Below, piece by piece: positions 777-64,000 of a stretch of 64,000 nt of DNA; within the stretch, counting starts at the first letter, position 1; each line of letters begins with the position of its first letter. The translations under genes were made by a program, and so were the position numbers. The notes beneath the pieces were generated by a model, which was not told where the DNA came from, did not search any database, and saw nothing but the letters and a program-made list of their open reading frames with translations. The stretch is taken from NCBI GenBank assembly GCA_033032175.1, contig CM065318.1, forward strand, positions 1,302,001-1,366,000. Reading direction: 5' to 3'. This stretch comes from Saturnia japonica. Its lineage: Eukaryota; Arthropoda; Insecta; Lepidoptera; Saturniidae.

Positions 777-1800
777 ATGAGACAGTTTAAAAGAAAACTA
801 CAGATTTTCCACTGCAATAAATTGATTCTAATGGAGTATTGTAGATTCAGGTGATATCAAAAGTTTTGTATAGAAATAATAATATCCATATAGCTACTTT
901 ACATTGTAATCTATTTGGAAAAAAATATTAAAATAATCTTATTTTTGCTTATGACTGTACATTATGTTATTCAGGCCACGTAACTGGTTTATTACTCGAG
1001 GCGACGTCTACTTGCGTACCCAATGTATTAAAGCTTTCACTGCTTACTCTACATTTGGCGATGTTTATTTGTATATTCAATAATGCGTGATAAGTTTGCC
1101 CGCTGTAACGCAAACGCCATACACATGACGAAAAAGTCATCTAACTAAATAAATGCATCATATACATCTCCCGAGGGATAGAACCAACTTAATTAAAACG
1201 TATTTGCGATTTCATGCGCTTAAAAATCTATTGCTCTGGTAGGAATCTGTACCTGACTGGGTACACGGTGATTAATTCGTCATATTGACTCTTTTGAGTT
1301 GTCGCGTTTTGGAATCAGTCAAAGTATATCTACGGGTCACTGTTGCTTTTAGACTGTACTGTGTTTATCTTTATAAACTGTTAAAAAACCCACTACATTA
1401 TGGTATTGAAACAAAATTTCTTCACTGGTTGCCACTTGGCCACCACCACATTTTTCCTAATGCTTTATTGCTTCACTTCAGTATTTGCTTGTGAAACAAC
1501 GACGTCTGTTAGGTGATCAACTGACAATTCATTACATGCAAAAAAATTGAATACTTTGATAGAATGTGTGCAGGATAGCAGGAAAACAGCGCAAACGCTG
1601 CAGTAGGCGTGGCCTGCCACAAGAGCAAGATCGCGTCACAAGTGCGAGCGAGACGCACTATATGTTTAGTTTATATCATATTTATAGCCTTTATATGTAT
1701 TGTTTTTAAGTTATTGTTAAATTATTAGAAAACCTTTTAGTTTCAACACACGAATATAGTTTTGTATAACCAATAGAGATATAGATATTAAGAAACACAT
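777..1800. other. Unique DNA upstream of the LINE-A array
   Basis: AT-rich, with a more mixed-composition patch at 1570-1665 (GCGCAAACGCTGCAGTAGGC, GCGAGCGAGACGCAC). The longest open frame (1285-1494, 69 codons) shows no domain, signal peptide or family resemblance and is not called. 1801-1900 turns GC-rich but is not recognised; it may be a further decayed part of the array. Confidence 0.4.
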
Positions 1801-1906
1801 TTTGCCATGGAGGGGACTTCGTACTCACGCCGCACTGTCGCCCTTCCAACAAGACCCGCTTAGCCGCCCCGTCGAGCGCCATAAAAGGCCGCGCTCCGCG
1901 GTACCA

Positions 1907-2178
1907 ATTCTCCAGCGGTACCTCAAATAAAAGCGGCAGCTTCGTATGTGCCCGACCCCAACGCCTGCCGGAGAAAACGCCGGCCGCGTAATATATTCAC
2001 TGAACCGCCCGACCAAACCGAAAAAGCTAACGCGTTCTACGCCGCCACCGTCTCTCCAAACAGAGCGTGCCAGCGCCCACGCCCGCGTAACCACCGTTCT
2101 CTCCGCAGAGGGCGGGCGGTCAATTTCGCTCCAGCACACCCGTCACGTCCACCCTCTCTAGCGGTAACCCAAGCCTAG
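1907..2178 (+). pseudogene. LINE-A unit 1: C-terminal tail of ORF2
   Basis: In the frame that reads KAAASYVPDPNACRRKRRPR from about 1935, the sequence stays open to a stop at 2176-2178. This basic, Pro/Arg-rich tail is the extreme C terminus found after the reverse transcriptase domain in jockey-clade elements of moths. The upstream part with the LTLYKMCIRP block, present in units 2 and 4, is missing, so this unit starts further downstream than the others. The 3' UTR follows (2179-2681) with a T-rich stretch at 2333-2351 and a poly(A) of about 22 at 2682-2703. Non-functional remnant; the clade assignment is by wording of the C-terminal region, from memory. Confidence 0.7.
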
Positions 2179-2703
2179 GTCCGTTCCTCGGTGTGAAACC
2201 CTTGGGTCAGGCAACCGCCCGCGCGATACAAGTGACACTGTACGTGCATCACTTAGCTACCAACATACAACACTACACACGTATGAACATACACACGTGC
2301 ACACCACACAGGTACATAGGTTCTGTGAGGGACCTTTTTTTTTCTTTTTTTACGCTAGTTAGTTAGCGCTAGTTAGTGTAGAAACATTCCGATTACGAAT
2401 ACACATACGCATGGTTCCTTCCTTCCTCCCAGGAGGAAGGGAACATGCCTATGTGTATATTTAGTTAGCTCGAATCGTAGGTGTAGGGATTCGATTAGAT
2501 CGCGACCCATTTGCGAACGCGACGACCGCCCGAGCCGAGGTCCGGCCACTTTGGCACCCTCGTGCGAGTCGTCCACAAAACTTTCGCGGCTGAGTGCCCT
2601 CTGCGCTCGCCCCCAAGTCCGGTGAAGCTGTAAAAGCCGCAGCGGCTTTAGGGCCCCTATGGCTAACAGTGTAGTCAGTTCTAAAAAAAAAAAAAAAAAA
2701 AAA

Positions 2704-3604
2704 GTACCAATTCCCTCGCCCGATTGCATCCCCTGTTATGTGCTGCAAGCAAAATGTCCACGAGACACAAGCTTACGCTCTACAAGATGTGTATCCGACC
2801 GATCATGACATATAGCTGCGTTGCGTTCGCACATATGTCAAGATATAACTGGGAACGCTTACAAGCCATCCAGAATAAGTTTCTTCACCGCCTTACCGGT
2901 GCCCCCTGGTTTGTTCGTATGGAGGATCTCCATAGAGATATGGACCTTCCCTCGATACACGCATATGCCAAACACCTTTCTCGCTCTTATTTCGACGCCA
3001 TCGACCCGCGAACCCTAAAAGCGGCATTTATGCCCGCCCCAACCGCAGAGAAAACGCCGGCCGCGAATTTCTCACCGCCGCCACCCAAAAGCACGCGTTC
3101 ACCGTCTCTCCCAAGGCGGGCGGCAATTCGCCCACCCCCGTACGCCACCCTCTCAGGGACCCAGTCAGTCGTTCCCGAAACCTTGGGTCAGCACGCCGCC
3201 AAAAGTAGCCGTCCGTGTACCCTTGTCAGCAACCCCCCGATACAAACACTGACCCACGTCTAGGTCAGACCTTTTTTTTCTTTTTTTACCTATGTTACCA
3301 GTTAACAACACGGTACAAGTCTAGATGTTCTTCCTTCTTCCAGAGGAAGGGAACGCTAGTTTATTAGTACTCGTTAGATAGGATCGATTGTCCTCCTTCT
3401 CCCGAAGGAGGAACGCCAGGAGTCATTGCCATCGTGGTGTGGATATTCGCGACCCTTGCGACGCCAAGCCGCCGAGCCGAAACCGGCCACTTTGGCCCTT
3501 GGCTCAACTTTGGCGTCCCAAAAAAAAAAACAAAAACGGTAACCTTAAAGCCGCACGCTTTAGGCCCTGGCAACAAAATGTCAGTACAAAAAAAAAAAAA
3601 AAAA
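2704..3604 (+). pseudogene. LINE-A unit 2: RT C-terminal region and 3' UTR
   Basis: Starts right after poly(A). From 2724 the frame reads LHPLLCAASKMSTRHKLTLY, then KMCIRPIMTYSCVAFAH and LTGAPWFVRMEDLH, the conserved post-catalytic region of jockey-like reverse transcriptases in moths. To about 2997 it is intact. After that (to the stop at 3261-3263) the protein is a scrambled version of the tail seen in unit 1, because the DNA lacks many short pieces; the run of P, T and S residues there should not be read as a real domain. The 3' UTR is also riddled with short deletions and ends in A-rich DNA at 3589-3604. The catalytic reverse-transcriptase motifs are not included, so the unit cannot be autonomous. 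Confidence 0.75.
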
Positions 3605-4486
3605 GTCAATTTCCCGCCGATTGCATCCCGTTGTCGCAACAAAATGTCAAGAACGAAGCTTACGCTCCAAAAGTTTCCACCGCTACTGCCCCGTTTGTTC
3701 GATGAGGTCAAGAATATGGACCTTCACCATCAGATAATTTCTCACCCCTTCCGTCCCCCTTTTGTCGATGGAGGATCCTAATAGACGCTTCTGTCCGACC
3801 CAAACCCTTCCGAAAATTCGCAAATCGAACCACGCGAACCTAACAAAAGCAGCGTTCTACGCCGCCACCGTCTCTCCAAACAGAGCGTGCCAGCGCCCAC
3901 GCCCGCGTAACCACCGTTCTCTCCGCAGAGGGACGGGCGGTCAACTTCGCTCCCGCACACCCGTCACGTCCACCCTCTCTAGCGGAACCCAAGCTAGGTC
4001 CGTTCCTCGGTGTGAAACCCTTGGGTCAGGCAACCGCCCCGCGATACAAGTGACACTTACGTGCACACTTAGCTACCAACAACAACATACACACGATGAA
4101 CAACACACGTGCACACCACACAGGTACATAGGTTCTGTAGGGACCTTTTTTTCTTTTTTTCGCTAGTTAGTTAGCGCTAGTTAGTGTAGAAACATTCCGA
4201 TTAAATACACATACGCATGGTCCTTCCTTCCTCCCAGGAGGAAGGAACTGCCTATGGTATATTTAGTTAGCTCGAATCTAGGTTGGGATTGTTAGATCGC
4301 GACCTTTGCAACGCGACGACCGCCCGAGCCGAGGTCCGGCCACTTTGGCACCCTGTCGACGTCACAAACTTTCGCGGCTGAGTGCCCTGCGCTCGCCCCC
4401 AAGTCCGGTGAAGCTGTAAAAGCCGCAGCGGCTTTAGGGCCCCTAGGCTAACAGTGTAGTCAGTTCAAAAAAAAAAAAAAAAAAAA
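3605..4486 (+). pseudogene. LINE-A unit 3: heavily eroded copy
   Basis: Begins GTCAATTTCCCGCCGATTGC, a shortened form of the same junction. Words from the reverse-transcriptase segment survive (AAGCTTACGCTCC, CCCCGTTTGTTCG, AATATGGACCTTC) but most bases between them are absent. From 3850 the C-terminal tail and 3' UTR are nearly complete, though one or two bases shorter at many places than in unit 1. Poly(A) of about 20 at 4467-4486. No usable frame. Confidence 0.7.
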
Positions 4487-5594
4487 GTACCAATTTCCTC
4501 CCCGATGTCCCCTGTTATGTGCTGCAAGCAAAATGTCCACGAGACACAAGCTTACGCTCTACAAGATGTGTATCCGACCGATCATGACATATAGCTGCGT
4601 TGCGTTCGCACATATGTCAAGATATAACTGGGAACGCTTACAAGCCATCCAGAATAAGTTTCTTCACCGCCTTACCGGTGCCCCCTGGTTTGTTCGTATG
4701 GAGGATCTCCATAGAGATATGGACCTTCCCTCGATACACGCATATGCCAAACACCTTTCTCGCTCTTATTTCGACAGCGCATCGAACACGCGAATCCCTT
4801 AATAAAGCGGCAGCTTCGTATGTGCCCGACCCCAACGCCTGCCGAGAAAACGCCGGCGCGTAATATATTCACTGACCGCCCGACCAAACCGAAAAAGCTA
4901 ACGCGTTCTACGCCGCCACCGTCTCTCCAAACAGAGCGTGCCACCGCCCACGCCCGCGTAACCACCGTTCTCTCCGCAGAGGACGGGCGGTCAACTTCGC
5001 TCCCGCACACCCGTCACGTCCACCCTCTCTAGCGGCAACCCAAGCCTAGGTCCGTTCCTCGGTGTGAAGCCCTTGGGTCAGGCAGCCGCCCACGCGATAC
5101 AAAGTGACACTATACGTGCAACACTTAGCTACCCACACACAACATTACACACGCATGAACAACACACACGTGCACACCACACAGGTACATAGGTTCTGTA
5201 AGGGACCTTTTTTTTCTTTTTTTGCGCTAGTTAGACTAATGCGCTAGTTAGTGTAGAAAAACCATTCCGATTATTAAATACACATACGCATGGTCCACTC
5301 CTTCCTCCCAGGAGGAGGGGAACGTGCATATGAGTATATATTAGTTAGCTCGAATTCTCATAGGATTCGGGAATTAGTTAGATCGCGACTTTTTCGCATT
5401 CGCGACGACCGCCCGAGCCGAGGTTCGGCCACTCTGGCACCCTCGTACGGCTCGTCACAAACTTTCGCGGCTGAGTGCCCTAAGCGCTCGCCCCCAAGTC
5501 CGGTGAAGCTGTAAAAGCCGCAGCGGCTCTGTTTTAGGATAGGGCCCCTAAGGCTAACAGTGTAGTCAGTTCAAAAAAAAAAAAAAAAAAAAAA
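4487..5594 (+). pseudogene. LINE-A unit 4: most complete unit
   Basis: GTACCAATTTCCTCC is followed by the reverse-transcriptase C-terminal segment (4533-4775), which by eye is base-for-base the same as in unit 2. A frameshift near 4775 separates it from the AAASYVPDPNACR tail (from about 4806), and further single-base losses break the tail. 3' UTR from about 5040, with T-rich stretch at 5208-5223 and GCGGCT near 5522, then a poly(A) of about 22 ending at 5594. At 1,108 bases it is the longest unit and the best template for describing the repeat. Confidence 0.75.
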
Positions 5595-5605
5595 GGTACC
5601 AATTC

Positions 5606-5981
5606 AGTCATTCTCAAGAAGTCGGCAAGAAACAACATAGCGACAAGTGCATCCGTTCTCAAGAAGTCAGCAAGAAAATAAATAGTGATAAAGACATTGA
5701 CACAGCAAGTAGATAGTAACAAGTGAATATTGTAAATAGTGATCAATAAAAGTTAAATTTATAGTCATCGACGTATTTTTACTCGGCAATCCAGTAATAG
5801 TTTTCAAAGTACGGAAACCACGGAATCAATAGTCCGTAGTATAGACCAGAGCTATCGTCTGGTCACTTGATAACCCGCACAGAATGACTACTTATTTATT
5901 CATGGATGGTATGTAATTATGATATGTACTTACGCTCCAAGAACAAGAACGACTGCTGAGATATAAGTAGTTATTAATAGA
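5606..5981. repeat. Flank of array with a 45-base direct duplication
   Basis: TTCTCAAGAAGTC occurs at 5611 and again at 5656, each followed by similar GCAAGAAA... sequence: two diverged units with a period of 45 bases. The remainder to 5981 is unique AT-rich DNA without a gene. Confidence 0.55.
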
Positions 5982-6470
5982 CTATATGTGCCCGCGGCTT
6001 CGCTCACGTGGTCTACAGAATGCCATCACGTGCGAACTTTGCTCCAGCTCCCTGTTAAAAAATGGTGACTGTGGCTATTCCTTAAAGTAGGTAGGTCTTT
6101 TTAAGATCAACAATAATTTAGTACATTAATTTAATATGTATCTAATGGATTACTCAGCATTTAAGCATCCGAATTGATTCACCATGACCAGTCTTTTTTT
6201 AATTAGCGTAGCATCCTAATTTTATTTCTAAAATAAAATTAGCCTAACGTACTCCTTACAATATCAGCTATCGGTAGAAGCTACTGGTAAGTGAAAGTCC
6301 TATTAAAATCGGTCCTACCGTTTCGGAGGTTATCCGGAACAAACAAACAGTCAAAATTTTTTTTTAGTTTCTTTATTATTATAAGTATCGTATATATTTT
6401 CAATTGTACATTTAGTAAAAAGTTCTTATTTTGACATTAGAAAAAGACACTTCAATATTATTATTTGTTT
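5982..6470 (-). mobile_element. Hel-1 Helitron-like element, near full length
   Basis: Minus-strand copy of the family defined by 47759-48275. The plus strand shows the complement of the 3' end (CCCGCGGCTTCGCTCACGTG at 5991), the middle (AAATCGGTCCTACCGTTTCG) and the complement of the 5' end (TTTTGACATTAG, CACTTCAATATTATTA). The CTAG terminus is mutated (ACTATA). Non-coding, about 490 bases. Confidence 0.7.
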
Positions 6471-7409
6471 AAAGGATAAATGTTATAGATAGATAGATAC
6501 TGTAGCCATGCTAGTCTTAAAATGTAAAAATCGTGAAAGACGTGAGGCGATACCCAAAAATTTGAAAAAAAACTTGTTAAAATTGCTATCACACGAAAAA
6601 AATAACCCTTTAAAAAGATATCAACCCAAAATGCCCCGAATGTAACTTTCAAGTTGTTAACCTAGGGCAATAAAAAAATTACCTACATAAAAAAAATGAA
6701 TGATATTTTAACAAACAACGACAAATAACCAGGCGACACAGTCACTTATCTTAATGTGTTCCTAAATCTAAGTAATAAATTTATACAACGATAAAAAAAT
6801 CACGTAAATAAACTAAATATGCAGTGTTTATATAATACGCTAATTTTAAACTTGCGTGTTTTAAAATAATTAGAAGAAAATGTGAATATGAACTTAATAA
6901 AAAGGACAGATTTTTAAAAAATATTTTTATGAAAGGTTTTTTAGACGGTTCTGAATTGTAAATAGTCGATTGTAATTTCAGATAAGTCGGGCCTTTTTTA
7001 TGATGGTTAATATTAAATTTCAACCACTGTTCAGTTGTAAGTTATAAGTGTTAACTGTTAGGATCAACATTGAATAAATTATTTTAGATTTTTTATTATA
7101 AGCTTCTATATAACTTGCTTTGTTAGTATGTTCCGAACTATGCAACTAAATTTTAAAACAGTTATTACCAACTGGTTGAGCTGAAGTTTTGCATACACGT
7201 TTATTTTAGACGACAATGTATAGTTAGCTAAATGACGTCATTCTAAATCCAAAATTGCGGACCAGTTATGTTTTATGCACCCCCGTGATATGGGTATCAA
7301 ATGAAAGGGTTTACTGAGCAGAATACGTAAAATAGATATTAATAAAAAAAGTGGAATTAAAATTAAATAAATTTCTAACGCATTACATACCTATATGTTT
7401 TTAAAATAA
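6471..7409. other. AT-rich unique DNA
   Basis: No recognisable gene or repeat. Short open frames here are lysine/phenylalanine-rich products of AT-rich composition and are not called. Confidence 0.4.
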
Positions 7410-28094: not shown

Positions 28095-28735
28095 TATCCT
28101 GGGTGTGGGTATTCGCAGTGACCTCAACTCCAGGGAATAAATACATAGGGAATGTCATCTTATCTCGGAGACTCGGAATCCCGTACCTACAGGGTGCGAC
28201 GTTGTCTCATGCCCGGTCAACTGTATCTTATTTACAATCCAAAAGTGCTGCCGTGTATGGAATACTGTTCGCATCTTTGCGATAGATCCGCAAAATACCT
28301 CCCCGATGCTCCGGTCAGGTTGCAGAGATGGGCTGCCCACATTGTTAATGATACAGACGTAACCATATACATTGAGCTGCTTCAGTTGCCCAGGAACATA
28401 GCCTCACTGAGCGTGTTATATCGTCTATATCATGGTGAGTGTTCTGAAGAGCTGTTAAATCTAATTCCTTCCTCTCCTTTCCACAACAGAACCAACCGCG
28501 CTGGGCCTCGGAGTTATAGTTTTACGGCAACTTCCATCTCTGCACAAACTAAACAGTTTCCTATGTCTTATCTTTGTGGTACCGTGAAACTATGGGGACC
28601 ATCTCTCGGCCAGTGTGTTCCCTCCTTCTTGCTACATCGAGTCCTTCAAGCGTAACATGAAGAGATGTCGATGCAGGCCAGGATGACAGCGGTGACCACC
28701 AATGGATCTAGATCTCTTGTACTGTGCTTACCTTC
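28095..28735 (+). pseudogene. LINE-C remnant, jockey-like RT C-terminal region
   Basis: Frames give VRRCLMPGQLYLIYNPKVLP then MEYCSHLCDRSAKYLPDAPV, LQRWAAHIVNDTDVTIYIEL, LYRLYHGECSEELLNLIPSS and, near the end, SFKRNM. This is the typical order of the C-terminal half of jockey-type reverse transcriptases (QVRPHMEYCSHLW, QRRAARIVND, HGECSEELFNLIP, FKxxVxRH). The stretch 28152-28655 is open; a frameshift at about 28150 cuts off LGVxIxSD-like residues and a second one near 28600 detaches the last block. 3' tail at 28660-28735 (GCAGGCCAGGATGACAGCGG). Catalytic YADD region absent. Best LINE-C copy in the window. Confidence 0.8.
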
Positions 28736-40295: not shown

Positions 40296-41546
40296 CCTAT
40301 GAAATTGCCGTTTTGTATGAAAAAATTTAAACGAATTTTGTTCATGTATTTTTTATTTGTATTAATCGAAGTAATCACCCATGCAATCGATGCATCTATG
40401 CCAGCGCAGTGGTAGTTTATTGATGCCCTTCTTAAAGAAAACAGATGGACGGGAGGCAACAAATTCTTCAAAGGCATTTTGTACTGCCTCTCGGGTCTTG
40501 AATTTTATTCCCGCCAAGGAGTTATCCAAATTCTGGAAAAAGTAGTAGTCTGTAGGCGCAAGGTCTGGTGAGTAGGGCGGATGACGGAGAACTTCCAACC
40601 CCAGTTCTTGCAACTAGGAGACCGTCTGCTGTGCAGTATGAGGTCGCGCGTTGTCGTGCAGGAGCAGCGGAGACGAGCGATTGACCAATGCTGGTTGGAG
40701 ATGTGCCAGCTTCTCCATCATTGTGTTCAGTTCTTCACAGTACACATCTGCAGTAATGCTCACCCCGTTTGGTAAGAAGCTGTGATGAATCACACCGGCG
40801 CTAGACCACCAAACAGTGACCATCACTTTTCTAGGGGTAAGCTTTCGTTTAGGTGCTGAACCAGGATCCAACCAACTTGCTGAGCGCTTGGGTTATCAAA
40901 CAGAATCCATTTTTCATCGCAGGTAACAATGCAGTTCAAAATTCCTTCATTTGTGTGTCTGTTGAGCAGTGCAGGGCACGTCTCGACGCGTACTTCGCGC
41001 TGGTGATCATTGAGTTCGTGGGGCACCCATTTGTCAAGCTTTTTTACCTTGCCAATTTGACGCAAATGGACCAATATTGTTTTGACGCTAACGTCGAAAG
41101 CTGCTGCTAATTCAGCCGTAGATTGTGTATCATCAGCTTCCACAATCGCCTTTAATTCGTCATTGTCGACCAAAGTCTTCGGACGACCGCGAGGTTCATT
41201 TTTCAGATTGAAATTCCCAGAACGGAAGCGAGCAAACCAATAACAGATGGTGGGTTGGTTTGTAGTGTTAGCTCCGTAAACGTCGTTGATGTTGCGTTCC
41301 GCTTGTGCCGCGTTGCTGCCACGACGGTACTCATATTCCATAATTACTCGAATTTTTAACGTATCCATGATGATAAAAAGATTGAAATGCGATGGAAATG
41401 TAACACTAATCAATAAACAAATGACTACTTCTGGAAAAAGAATTCCATGTTTATAAAATAAAATTAATTTGAAATTAGAATTCTTAGCCAAACAAAAATT
41501 ATTTTGATTTGAAATGGCCGGTACTGCAGAACGGCAATTTCATAGG
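40296..41546 (-). mobile_element. mariner element with TA duplications
   Basis: Terminal inverted repeats CCTATGAAATTGCCGTT (40296-40312) and its complement ending at 41546, each flanked by TA (40294-40295 and 41547-41548). 1,251 bases, a normal mariner length. Encodes one transposase on the minus strand, now broken. The left end lies within the terminal bases of a Hel-4 fragment, but the right flank does not resume Hel-4, so a small deletion on that side is likely. Confidence 0.85.
40362..41368 (-). pseudogene. mariner transposase, one frameshift and one stop
   Basis: About 335 codons from the ATG at 41368-41366 (MDTLKIRVIMEYEYRRG) to a stop at 40362. The N-terminal half has the paired helix-turn-helix DNA-binding region (NINDVYGANTTNQPTICYWF; later AELAAAFDVSVKTILVHLRQ). 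The linker motif WVPHEL is intact. The catalytic D,D34D triad can be read: first D in CDEKW, second in LHDNARPH, third in YSPDLAPTD, exactly 34 positions after the second if the stop is counted. Damage: a one-base frameshift near 40870 (between PSAQQ and LDPGSAPK), and an in-frame TAG at 40614-40616 just before LQELGLEVL. A normal member is about 345 residues, so nothing else is missing. It cannot make active protein. Confidence 0.9.
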
Positions 41547-42516: not shown

Positions 42517-44762
42517 ATGGAACATCCCGTGTCACCGTGTCTACCCAGACAGTCAAGAAAACGGCAGAAAAATCCAGATAATTGGACAGTAAACATGAAG
42601 AAACGGGCGAGGTTCGTACGCAACGCTTACACAATTTTGATACTTTGAATTTTTTTTTGTATTTATTGGTTTTGTGATTTTTAGTTATTTAGATTATTTA
42701 TTACGTATGTAAATATAATAATATATTATATTTATTCCTTCAATGTATTTATAACAAACAAGTAAATATATGTTATTAGGAGCAATAATTAACTTAAAAT
42801 ATCTATGCTGGGCTTCTACGATAATCCTTAGTTTTTAGTTTATACTATTCCGATGATCAAAGCTTATTATCGGAGATACAAGTTTTAGCTATAGCTAACA
42901 TATTCTTACTAATATTATTAATGCGAAATTGTGTTTTTTCCCACATTTTCACGACTAAAACACTGATTTGAATTTCATCAGTATTTATAGGTTTTATCAG
43001 ATGCTGTTTCCTTACAGGTATTCTTCTAAGAGTTTACCAGTTCGTCCAGTCTGTCAACACAACACTAATGCTTTTAAATGTGGATCATTAACGATGGGGG
43101 ACATCAAGTACTTTTACGAAATGTTTTACAAAAAATCAGAAAAAGTATCTCAAGATGCATTTATTTTAAAATATTGCAAACCAAAAAATATAAAAAGACG
43201 CAGAGGGCAACAGAATTCTAATAAACGGAAACTACTACAGACTAAATTTAAGGTGTTTTGTTTAAGTCAGAAACGCATTATTCCTGTTTGTCAATTAGCA
43301 TTTCTTAATATATTGCAAATCACGAAACACAGAATTCTAACAATAATGAAACATTTTTTTAAAACTGGTTCTTTAATTACTGAACGTCGCGGAGGTAATC
43401 GCAAAGAATTTGTATTCAGAGAAAAACTTGCTGCTGTAAAGACGTTTATCGGTAGTTTCAATTGCGATGAGCCTCATTATTGTCGGGGTAAAACAAAAAG
43501 ATTTTATCTAGCAGCTGACCTTAACATTAATAAGATGTGGCGTATGTATAACGCTCCAGCAGAGAGTCATTTAAAAGTGAAAAAGGCATATTTCAGAAAG
43601 ATATTTAATACGCATTTTAATTTGGGATTTGGCTCGCCACGAACGGATGTCTGTTCAACTTGTTTGCAGTATGATGAATTATTGAAAGTAGAGAAAGATA
43701 CATCGAAACGAAATAATATAATGATAGAAAGAAGAGTGCATAAATTGCGAGTAAAAGCATTTTTTGATTTGGTTCGCGAAGAAAAAGATGATATGATGAC
43801 ATTTTGTTTTGATTGTCAAAAAAATTGCCCTATGCCTAAACTGCCTGATCAAAGCACATATTATTCTAGACAGTTATACCTTTATAATTGCACCATTGTT
43901 CAAGGCAATTCTAAAACCAAACTTTCACAAGAAAATGTATTTGCTTGACTGAAGATACTTTTGCGAAGGGCTCAAATGAAATTGCCTCATCTGTATTCCA
44001 CCGACTTTGTTCAACAGATTTTTGTGGGATGAAAACGGTACGGTTGATCGCGGATGGATGCGGTGGACAAAATAAAAATACGTCCATGATGACAATGTTA
44101 GCTAAGTGGCTGACAAACAATGCCCCAGACACCATAAAAAATGTTCAAATAGTATTCCCTGTAGTAGGACACTCATTTATACCGCCGGATCGAGTATTTG
44201 GAATGATAGAAAAAGATATACAAAAACGAGAAATAATCAAAAATCCAGAAGAATACTTGAACATAATAAAAAATTACAGTACTGTTTAATAATTTAATAA
44301 TTAGGAGTTGACTTTAAAGTTTATGATTGGAGAAACGCTACGAAAACTTTTGTCAAAGATGTCGGTCACTGGCATTTACAATTTCAAAAATGTAAAAGAT
44401 TTTTTATCAAAAGAACGAAGAGCAAAGATAATGTGGTAGTAAAGGGCGATTTGTTTTATAAAGTAAGTGAAGGAATATATAGAGCGATAACAAAAAAAAC
44501 AAAAACCTTTTATACGATGAGGGTTGGCGAAGTAAGTTCGTCTGGGCACGTGAACACAAATAAGATATTAGACGTCAAGAAATTATTAGTAAAACATTAC
44601 GGAGAAGACTGGACCGAAGATAAGGAATTGGTGTTCTACAAATCTTTAATAACAGCGTCTACAAATACAGAAGATGAATCTACAGGATCTAATGAAACGC
44701 ATGGACATGTAGATGAGGTCTTATGTCAATGTCAGAATGAGGAGCCTGTTTTGCGAATATAA
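42517..44762 (+). pseudogene. Sola-like transposase, two exons, two frameshifts
   Basis: Exon 1 probably runs from the ATG at 42517 (MEHPVSPCLPRQSRKRQKNP) to 42611 before a GTTCGT donor. Exon 2 starts at 43018 after TTTCCTTACAG; the phases fit and join KKRAR to YSSKSLPVRPVC. Exon 2 has a Cys pair (DVCSTC, about 43645), DCQKNCPMPKLPDQSTYYSR (about 43810-43870), then a one-base loss near 43945 (FA / TEDTFAKGSNEIAS). The frame continues with DGCGGQNKN (about 44055) and GHSFIPPDRVFGMIEK (about 44168-44215) until a second shift between 44285 and 44300, after which LGVDFKVYDWR and the C terminus follow from 44301 to 44762. About 610 codons in total. The acidic residues and GGQNKN block are typical of a DDE-type integrase core shared by many insect proteins annotated as uncharacterised. 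Host-gene origin is unlikely because the gene lies inside inverted repeats. Confidence 0.75.
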
Positions 44763-63305: not shown

Positions 63306-63336
63306 GATTATAAAAGAAAAAAGTTAAAAGTCATAC

Positions 63337-63878
63337 TTTTTTTTGTCAATCTGACCTTACTGTTAGCCTGAGGGGCCCTATTCATAAACAGAGCCGTTGA
63401 TGGCTTTTACAGGTTTACCGGGTACTTAGCGAACGCGTGGGCAACAAGCGCGCAGGATGCCAAAGTGGCCGGACCTAGGGTTGGTCTGTTGCCGCGATTG
63501 AAAAGAAGTCTCGATCTGACTAATTCCTTATCCGTAAAATTCGAGCTAAACTATCATATAAATATATACATGTTCCTACCTCCTGTGCGGAAGGAGCATG
63601 TGTATACATATGTATTTAGTGATCTGAAATATTGTCTACACTAAGTAGCGTAAAAAAAGAAAAAAAGGTTGTATGTATGTAAGGTGGTACGTATGTATGA
63701 ACATATTGTGGATAATGATGTATGTGGGTAGCTAATTGATTGCAAGTGCAGTGTCACCTGTATCACGCGGGCGACTGCCAGACTCAAGGGTTTCACACCG
63801 AGGAACGGACCTAGAATTGGGTTGCCGACAAAGACGGAGGTCGCGGCGACGGGTGTGCGGGAGCGAAGTTAGCCACCC
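63337..63878 (-). repeat. LINE-A 3' end, minus-strand copy
   Basis: T run (63337-63344) then CTGTTAGCCTGAGGGGCCCT, GATGCCAAAGTGGCCGGACC, GTAAAAAAAGAAAAAAAGGT (complement of the T-rich stretch), GGGTTTCACACCGAGGAACG and GTGTGCGGGAGCGAAGTTAG: the complement of the array units in the same order, up to the end of the ORF2 tail. Diverged from the array, so from a different insertion. Its A tail is only eight bases. Confidence 0.75.
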
Positions 63879-64000
63879 GTTATACTAAAACTTTATAGTC
63901 TTAACATTGACTACAGCGAGTTATAAAGTGGTAGAAGTAAACACGCTAAGCCTAGAAGATCTAGATCTCAATTACAGTTACCGATTTTTGAGGTGAAGGG
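63879..64000. other. Unique DNA at window edge
   Basis: Nothing recognised; the LINE-A homology ends near 63878. Confidence 0.3.

Follow-up and report, generated by a model that had tools for sequence, protein, structure and literature searches.

Truncated LINE 3' ends in probable tandem at one target site of Saturnia japonica, around a middle that looks mis-assembled

The telomeric chains of HeT-A, TART and TAHRE consist of non-LTR retrotransposon copies arranged head to tail and targeted to chromosome ends. In seven Drosophila species, tandem R1 elements are separated by a 14-bp target duplication, from which the authors conclude that new copies went into the duplication lying 5' of an element already in place (PMC2718515). 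In the same study, tandem-like R1 copies of D. melanogaster that share identical rearranged junctions are ascribed by the authors to amplification of one event (PMC2718515), so that both a serial insertion route and an amplification route are in print for R1. LINE 3' ends can also give rise to satellites, such as the common cetacean satellite, from L1, and the chicken HinfI satellite, from CR1 (PMC9659126).

Here we describe a block of LINE 3' ends in a stretch of 64,000 nucleotides of Saturnia japonica DNA (contig CM065318.1), hereafter the window, in which two clean parts enclose a middle that reads as garbled, and which is made up as follows, together with its one relative of any length in the window:

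1567-1910, plus strand: probable 5' part of a solo LTR, starting TGTGC (search for end pairs, moderate; the LTR identity is our reading)
1900-1910, plus strand: target duplication of the LINE, left copy of GGTACCAATTC, exact match
1911-2703, plus strand: unit 1, with a short filler containing GCGGTACC, LINE C-terminal coding end from about 1930, 3' UTR and A21; clean
2703-2996, plus strand: copy of the target word and head of unit 2, an open frame, clean, matching the head of unit 4
2997-3851, plus strand: probable artefact, a deletion-riddled consensus of unit tail, poly(A) and unit head
3852-4507, plus strand: probable artefact, the tail of unit 3 (3852-4486) and a slightly noisy next head (4487-4507), from alignments, the latter from those of the heads
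4508-5594, plus strand: unit 4, with head, coding end, 3' UTR and A22; clean save for a frame break
5595-5605, plus strand: target duplication of the LINE, right copy of GGTACCAATTC, exact match
5606-5881, plus strand: probable 3' part of the solo LTR as we read it, with AATAAA at 5745 and a GCACA end
63336-63880, minus strand: related LINE 3' end, 69.5% identical to unit 4, the match beginning at unit-4 position 497

The two exact copies of GGTACCAATTC flank the whole block, the left one at the place where a first-pass annotation had put its repeated word before the first unit. A third copy with one mismatch, at 2703-2713, forms the clean junction after unit 1, and with the outer copies at 1900 and 5595 it gives the R1 type of arrangement, in which units are separated by the target duplication. 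Matches to GGTACCAATTC with at most one mismatch number three in the 64 kb, and three or more occurred in 5 of 100 shuffles; what gives the three matches weight is where they lie, one immediately before the block and the others immediately behind poly(A) tails. Poly(A) runs lie at 2683-2703, 3588-3604, 4467-4486 and 5573-5594, and GTACCAATT follows each of them except at 3605, where a damaged GTCAATT stands, so that the poly(A)-ending blocks with a repeated word behind each, as claimed in that annotation, are indeed present. Since GTCAATT sits within a noisy stretch, it is no evidence of a sequence variant.

The A21 and A22 tails, the 11-bp duplication and three different 5' ends, if the diverged 63-kb copy is counted, are those of a poly(A)-tailed LINE, and the head peptide is one that we take to be from a jockey-like element. 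Pfam gave no match for the 97-residue head, and the protein database, in which we assume few insect proteins are to be expected, no homologue of it; tRNA and Rfam searches and an exact-pattern scan of viral contigs found nothing. The 63-kb copy is truncated elsewhere than the units of the block and lies away from GGTACCAATT. Diverged as it is, it argues against one fixed truncation codon and, lying at another site, lends no support to site specificity of the family. The LINE 3' UTR also contains a hairpin-forming palindrome of the CCTTCCTCCCAGGAGGAAGG type, at 2399-2458 (arms 2399-2423 and 2434-2458), 4205-4247, 5278-5337 and, on the minus strand, about 63555-63620, those outside unit 1 having been identified by eye; it is weaker in the diverged copy and may be a structural element that this region has retained. 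Within 714-783, a 47-base piece (729-775) is 87% identical to the LINE 3' UTR around AAGCTGTAAAAGCC, without poly(A) behind it. Elsewhere in the window, a minus-strand open frame of 238 residues (40823-41539) looks to us like a mariner-type transposase, a plus-strand frame of 168 residues (28149-28655) resembles the end of another LINE reverse transcriptase, and two long plus-strand frames of 329 and 153 residues occupy 42959-43948 and 44301-44762.

With the insert taken out, 1567-1910 and 5606-5881 join into a candidate LTR of 620 bases with matching inverted ends (TGTGC/GCACA) and a possible 5-bp target duplication, GAATG, at 1562-1566 and 5882-5886. This is one of 15 candidate end pairs, chosen for the 5-bp duplication and the matching inverted ends, and of 1000 shuffles 41 yielded a pair equally good. 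Once the two flanks are joined, ATAAAAG stands 29 bases before the A of TCAGT, the word that the insert splits. If ATAAAAG is TATA-like and TCAGT initiator-like, as we assume, the insert would have the TATA box on one side and the initiator on the other, and the insertion site of the block is probably within the core promoter of a solo LTR. No second copy of the LTR flanks was found within the 64-kb window. The whole block is further bracketed by an inverted 72-base repeat (437-508 and 6409-6480, 83% complementary), the right side of which overlaps a repeat with matches at about 39.6-39.9, 45.8-46.0 and 47.8-48.1 kb.

The block reads as ordinary DNA up to 2996 and again from about 4508, but not in between. 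The open frame of unit 1 runs to a stop ending at 2178, and we read the frame 1885-2178 as LINE coding; that of the unit 2 head is presumably the C-terminal region of a reverse-transcriptase type of protein. Alignment of unit 4 gives 89.9% identity with unit 1 (798 columns) and 89.3% with the unit 3 tail (691 columns). The match of unit 1 to unit 4 begins at 1930, which is unit-4 position 318, and the two therefore differ in their 5' ends. The heads of units 2 and 4, on the other hand, are identical over 268 bases (2729-2996 against 4508-4775), and over their entire length they align with 288 identities, 1 substitution and 4 missing bases. The truncation point claimed to be common to units 2-4 rests on this match and on the head of unit 3, which is noisy, and the two identical heads may be one stretch assembled twice, and hence one observation repeated. 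The open frame of unit 4 breaks between 4802 and 4876, where its alignment to unit 1 has three one-base gaps (between 4843 and 4874); break and gaps may be either residual noise or real. Tandem Repeats Finder did not list the block, the longest period in its list being 500.

Comparison of the unit 1 tail with that of unit 4 covers 741 sites and shows 41 differences, unevenly spread: 5 of 246 in the coding part against 36 of 495 downstream of the stop codon (Fisher p 0.003), a contrast that hangs on 5 coding substitutions and on an interval whose unit 4 part may hold residual noise. Had one insertion been duplicated in place and then decayed, the coding and downstream parts should differ alike; the coding deficit, few as the coding changes are, suggests that the divergence arose in working source copies before insertion. 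Polarised with the 63-kb copy, 23 differences are derived in unit 1, 14 in unit 4 and 10 are unclear, which does not discriminate between the explanations.

Compared with unit 1, the tail of unit 3 has lost 38 bases in 32 events, gained one and changed two by substitution. With the ends taken slightly shorter the count of missing bases is 37, and 33 of these are at most one base from a difference between units 1 and 4, against a background of 26% of positions; 650 circular shifts of the pattern gave a mean of 9.1, with top values of 33, 31 and 31 and a next best of 18. At the 41 substitutions between units 1 and 4, unit 3 is without the base in 20 cases, shares it with unit 1 in 19 and with unit 4 in 2. 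The tail thus looks like an in-register blend of units 1 and 4 that leans to unit 1, of the kind that a consensus step facing disagreeing reads could give, although an even blend would not mostly carry the letters of unit 1 wherever letters remain.

The stretch 2997-3851, aligned to the expected unit sequence of tail, poly(A) and head, gives 746 identities and 11 mismatches, with 480 bases deleted in 182 events and 98 inserted in 47. It scores 822, against 378-430 for 20 shuffles of itself, and therefore derives from the unit, chiefly by base loss. Because a global alignment could slide back into register, we confined the alignment to a band around a shifted path, with shifts from -400 to +400 in steps of 20. 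Shifts of +60, +80 and +100 scored 816, 856 and 810, and the other tested shifts of at least 40 either way 590-736. The second peak belongs to 3291-3851, the larger part of the stretch, which fits the unit again 80-100 bases away: 3291-3600 scores 276 and 281 at +80 and +100, against 167-238 at other shifts of at least 40, and 3601-3851 scores 303 and 276, against 161-220 at other shifts. The first part, 2997-3290, lacks this peak (225 and 234) and has a smaller one at -60 (305), so that one offset does not cover the whole stretch, against a fixed-offset account. Landmarks found once per clean unit and picked here by eye come in pairs with a spacing of 62-68 bases (3344 and 3406 for the hairpin arm, 3520 and 3588 for poly(A), 3575 and 3641 for AAAATGTC), and GGACCTTC and GGAGGATC are reversed in order. 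We read the stretch as two copies interleaved out of register, with an offset that shifts along it. Its tail part is slightly closer to unit 1 (584.5) than to unit 4 (567.5), which does not decide anything.

We know of no mutational process that yields either this pattern or that of unit 3, and the blend pattern fits disagreeing reads; for these reasons we take the stretch from 2997 to about 4507 to have been created by the assembly. The alignments strongly indicate a mis-merged consensus of reads from different units or registers, a stretch with no history of its own as a DNA copy. Of the four head-to-tail units that had been proposed, unit 1, the head of unit 2 and unit 4 hold up as clean or nearly so, while 2997-4507 drops out as a probable artefact. 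The case shows how a consensus that is blended and out of register may be mistaken for a middle repeat unit in decay. It also offers a simple test for such an artefact, which is to look for bases lost at places where two other units disagree and for landmarks that occur twice at a nearly constant offset.

We consider it moderately probable, judging from the assembled sequence, that at least two 5'-truncated copies of a LINE, jockey-like as we take it to be, lie head to tail at one target site through serial insertion, with the middle mis-merged. One copy would have been inserted by target-primed reverse transcription, and another copy, from a different source, would then have entered one of the resulting target duplications, in the manner proposed for R1. 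Unable to place the repeat reads, the assembler would have produced the blended and partly out-of-register middle. The spread of the differences between units 1 and 4 and their unlike 5' ends mildly favour two insertions over one that was amplified. The true number of units is two or more, and the assembled copy number is untrustworthy. Assemblers normally span a two-unit repeat of 2 kb without trouble, and their failure here may call for a longer array or for alleles that differ in length. We set aside the possibility that two alleles, one with unit 1 and the other with unit 4, had been joined, as the junction after unit 1 is clean and falls exactly at the target word. An age estimate from the pure poly(A) tails was also set aside as too weak.

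A rather unlikely alternative, and the conclusion drawn in the first-pass annotation, is that a single insertion, truncated at its 5' end, multiplied together with its target duplication, through unequal exchange or slippage, to form a short array. A recent duplication would equally give unit 2 and 4 heads that share their start and are identical over 268 bases, the target word or its damaged form is found at each junction, and amplification is also how identical junctions among tandem-like R1 copies are explained for D. melanogaster (PMC2718515). Against it stand the unlike 5' ends of units 1 and 4 and the uneven distribution of their differences, the blend-like unit 3 tail, and the possibility that the identity of the heads is that of one stretch assembled twice. 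What survives of that conclusion, on the clean left and right parts, is a tandem of 5'-truncated LINE 3' ends with the target duplication between units; that a single insertion gave rise to it by amplification, as a young satellite-like array, is a step that the sequence does not establish.

We are likewise doubtful that the site holds a far longer array, with unit-1-like and unit-4-like units mixed, which the assembly collapsed and of which the garbled middle would mark the collapse. At least two kinds of reads must be stacked to give a blended two-register consensus, and in both registers head-like words come after poly(A), but there is no second array within the 64-kb window. It is highly unlikely that 2997-4507, although present in the assembled sequence, is genuine DNA from old units decayed through many small deletions, given 182 deletion events against 11 mismatches in 855 bases, the loss of bases where the two other units differ, the second register and the lack of any mutational explanation known to us.

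Serial insertion at one site could be carried further, and we think it improbable that it should be: a poly(A)-tailed LINE would insert time after time into the same 11-bp target, which lies between TATA box and initiator in the promoter of an LTR, and would so build word-separated arrays, long enough in this individual to defeat the assembler. If the same-site tandem itself is true, it provides an instance, outside the rDNA, of LINEs inserting serially.

Unlike the HeT-A, TART and TAHRE chains, the block is internal in the window and has a target word between its units. Like the LINE-derived satellites (PMC9659126), it is a tandem whose unit comes from the 3' region of a LINE; it differs from those, which are established satellites, in having two clean units, with 41 of 741 sites different, and a garbled middle. 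The likeness to the R1 arrays (PMC2718515) lies in non-LTR copies standing in tandem at one site with the target duplication between them. R1, however, targets the 28S rDNA with a 14-bp duplication, whereas at this locus the word is of 11 bp and lies in a probable LTR promoter, the units have lost their 5' parts, and nothing supports site specificity of the family.
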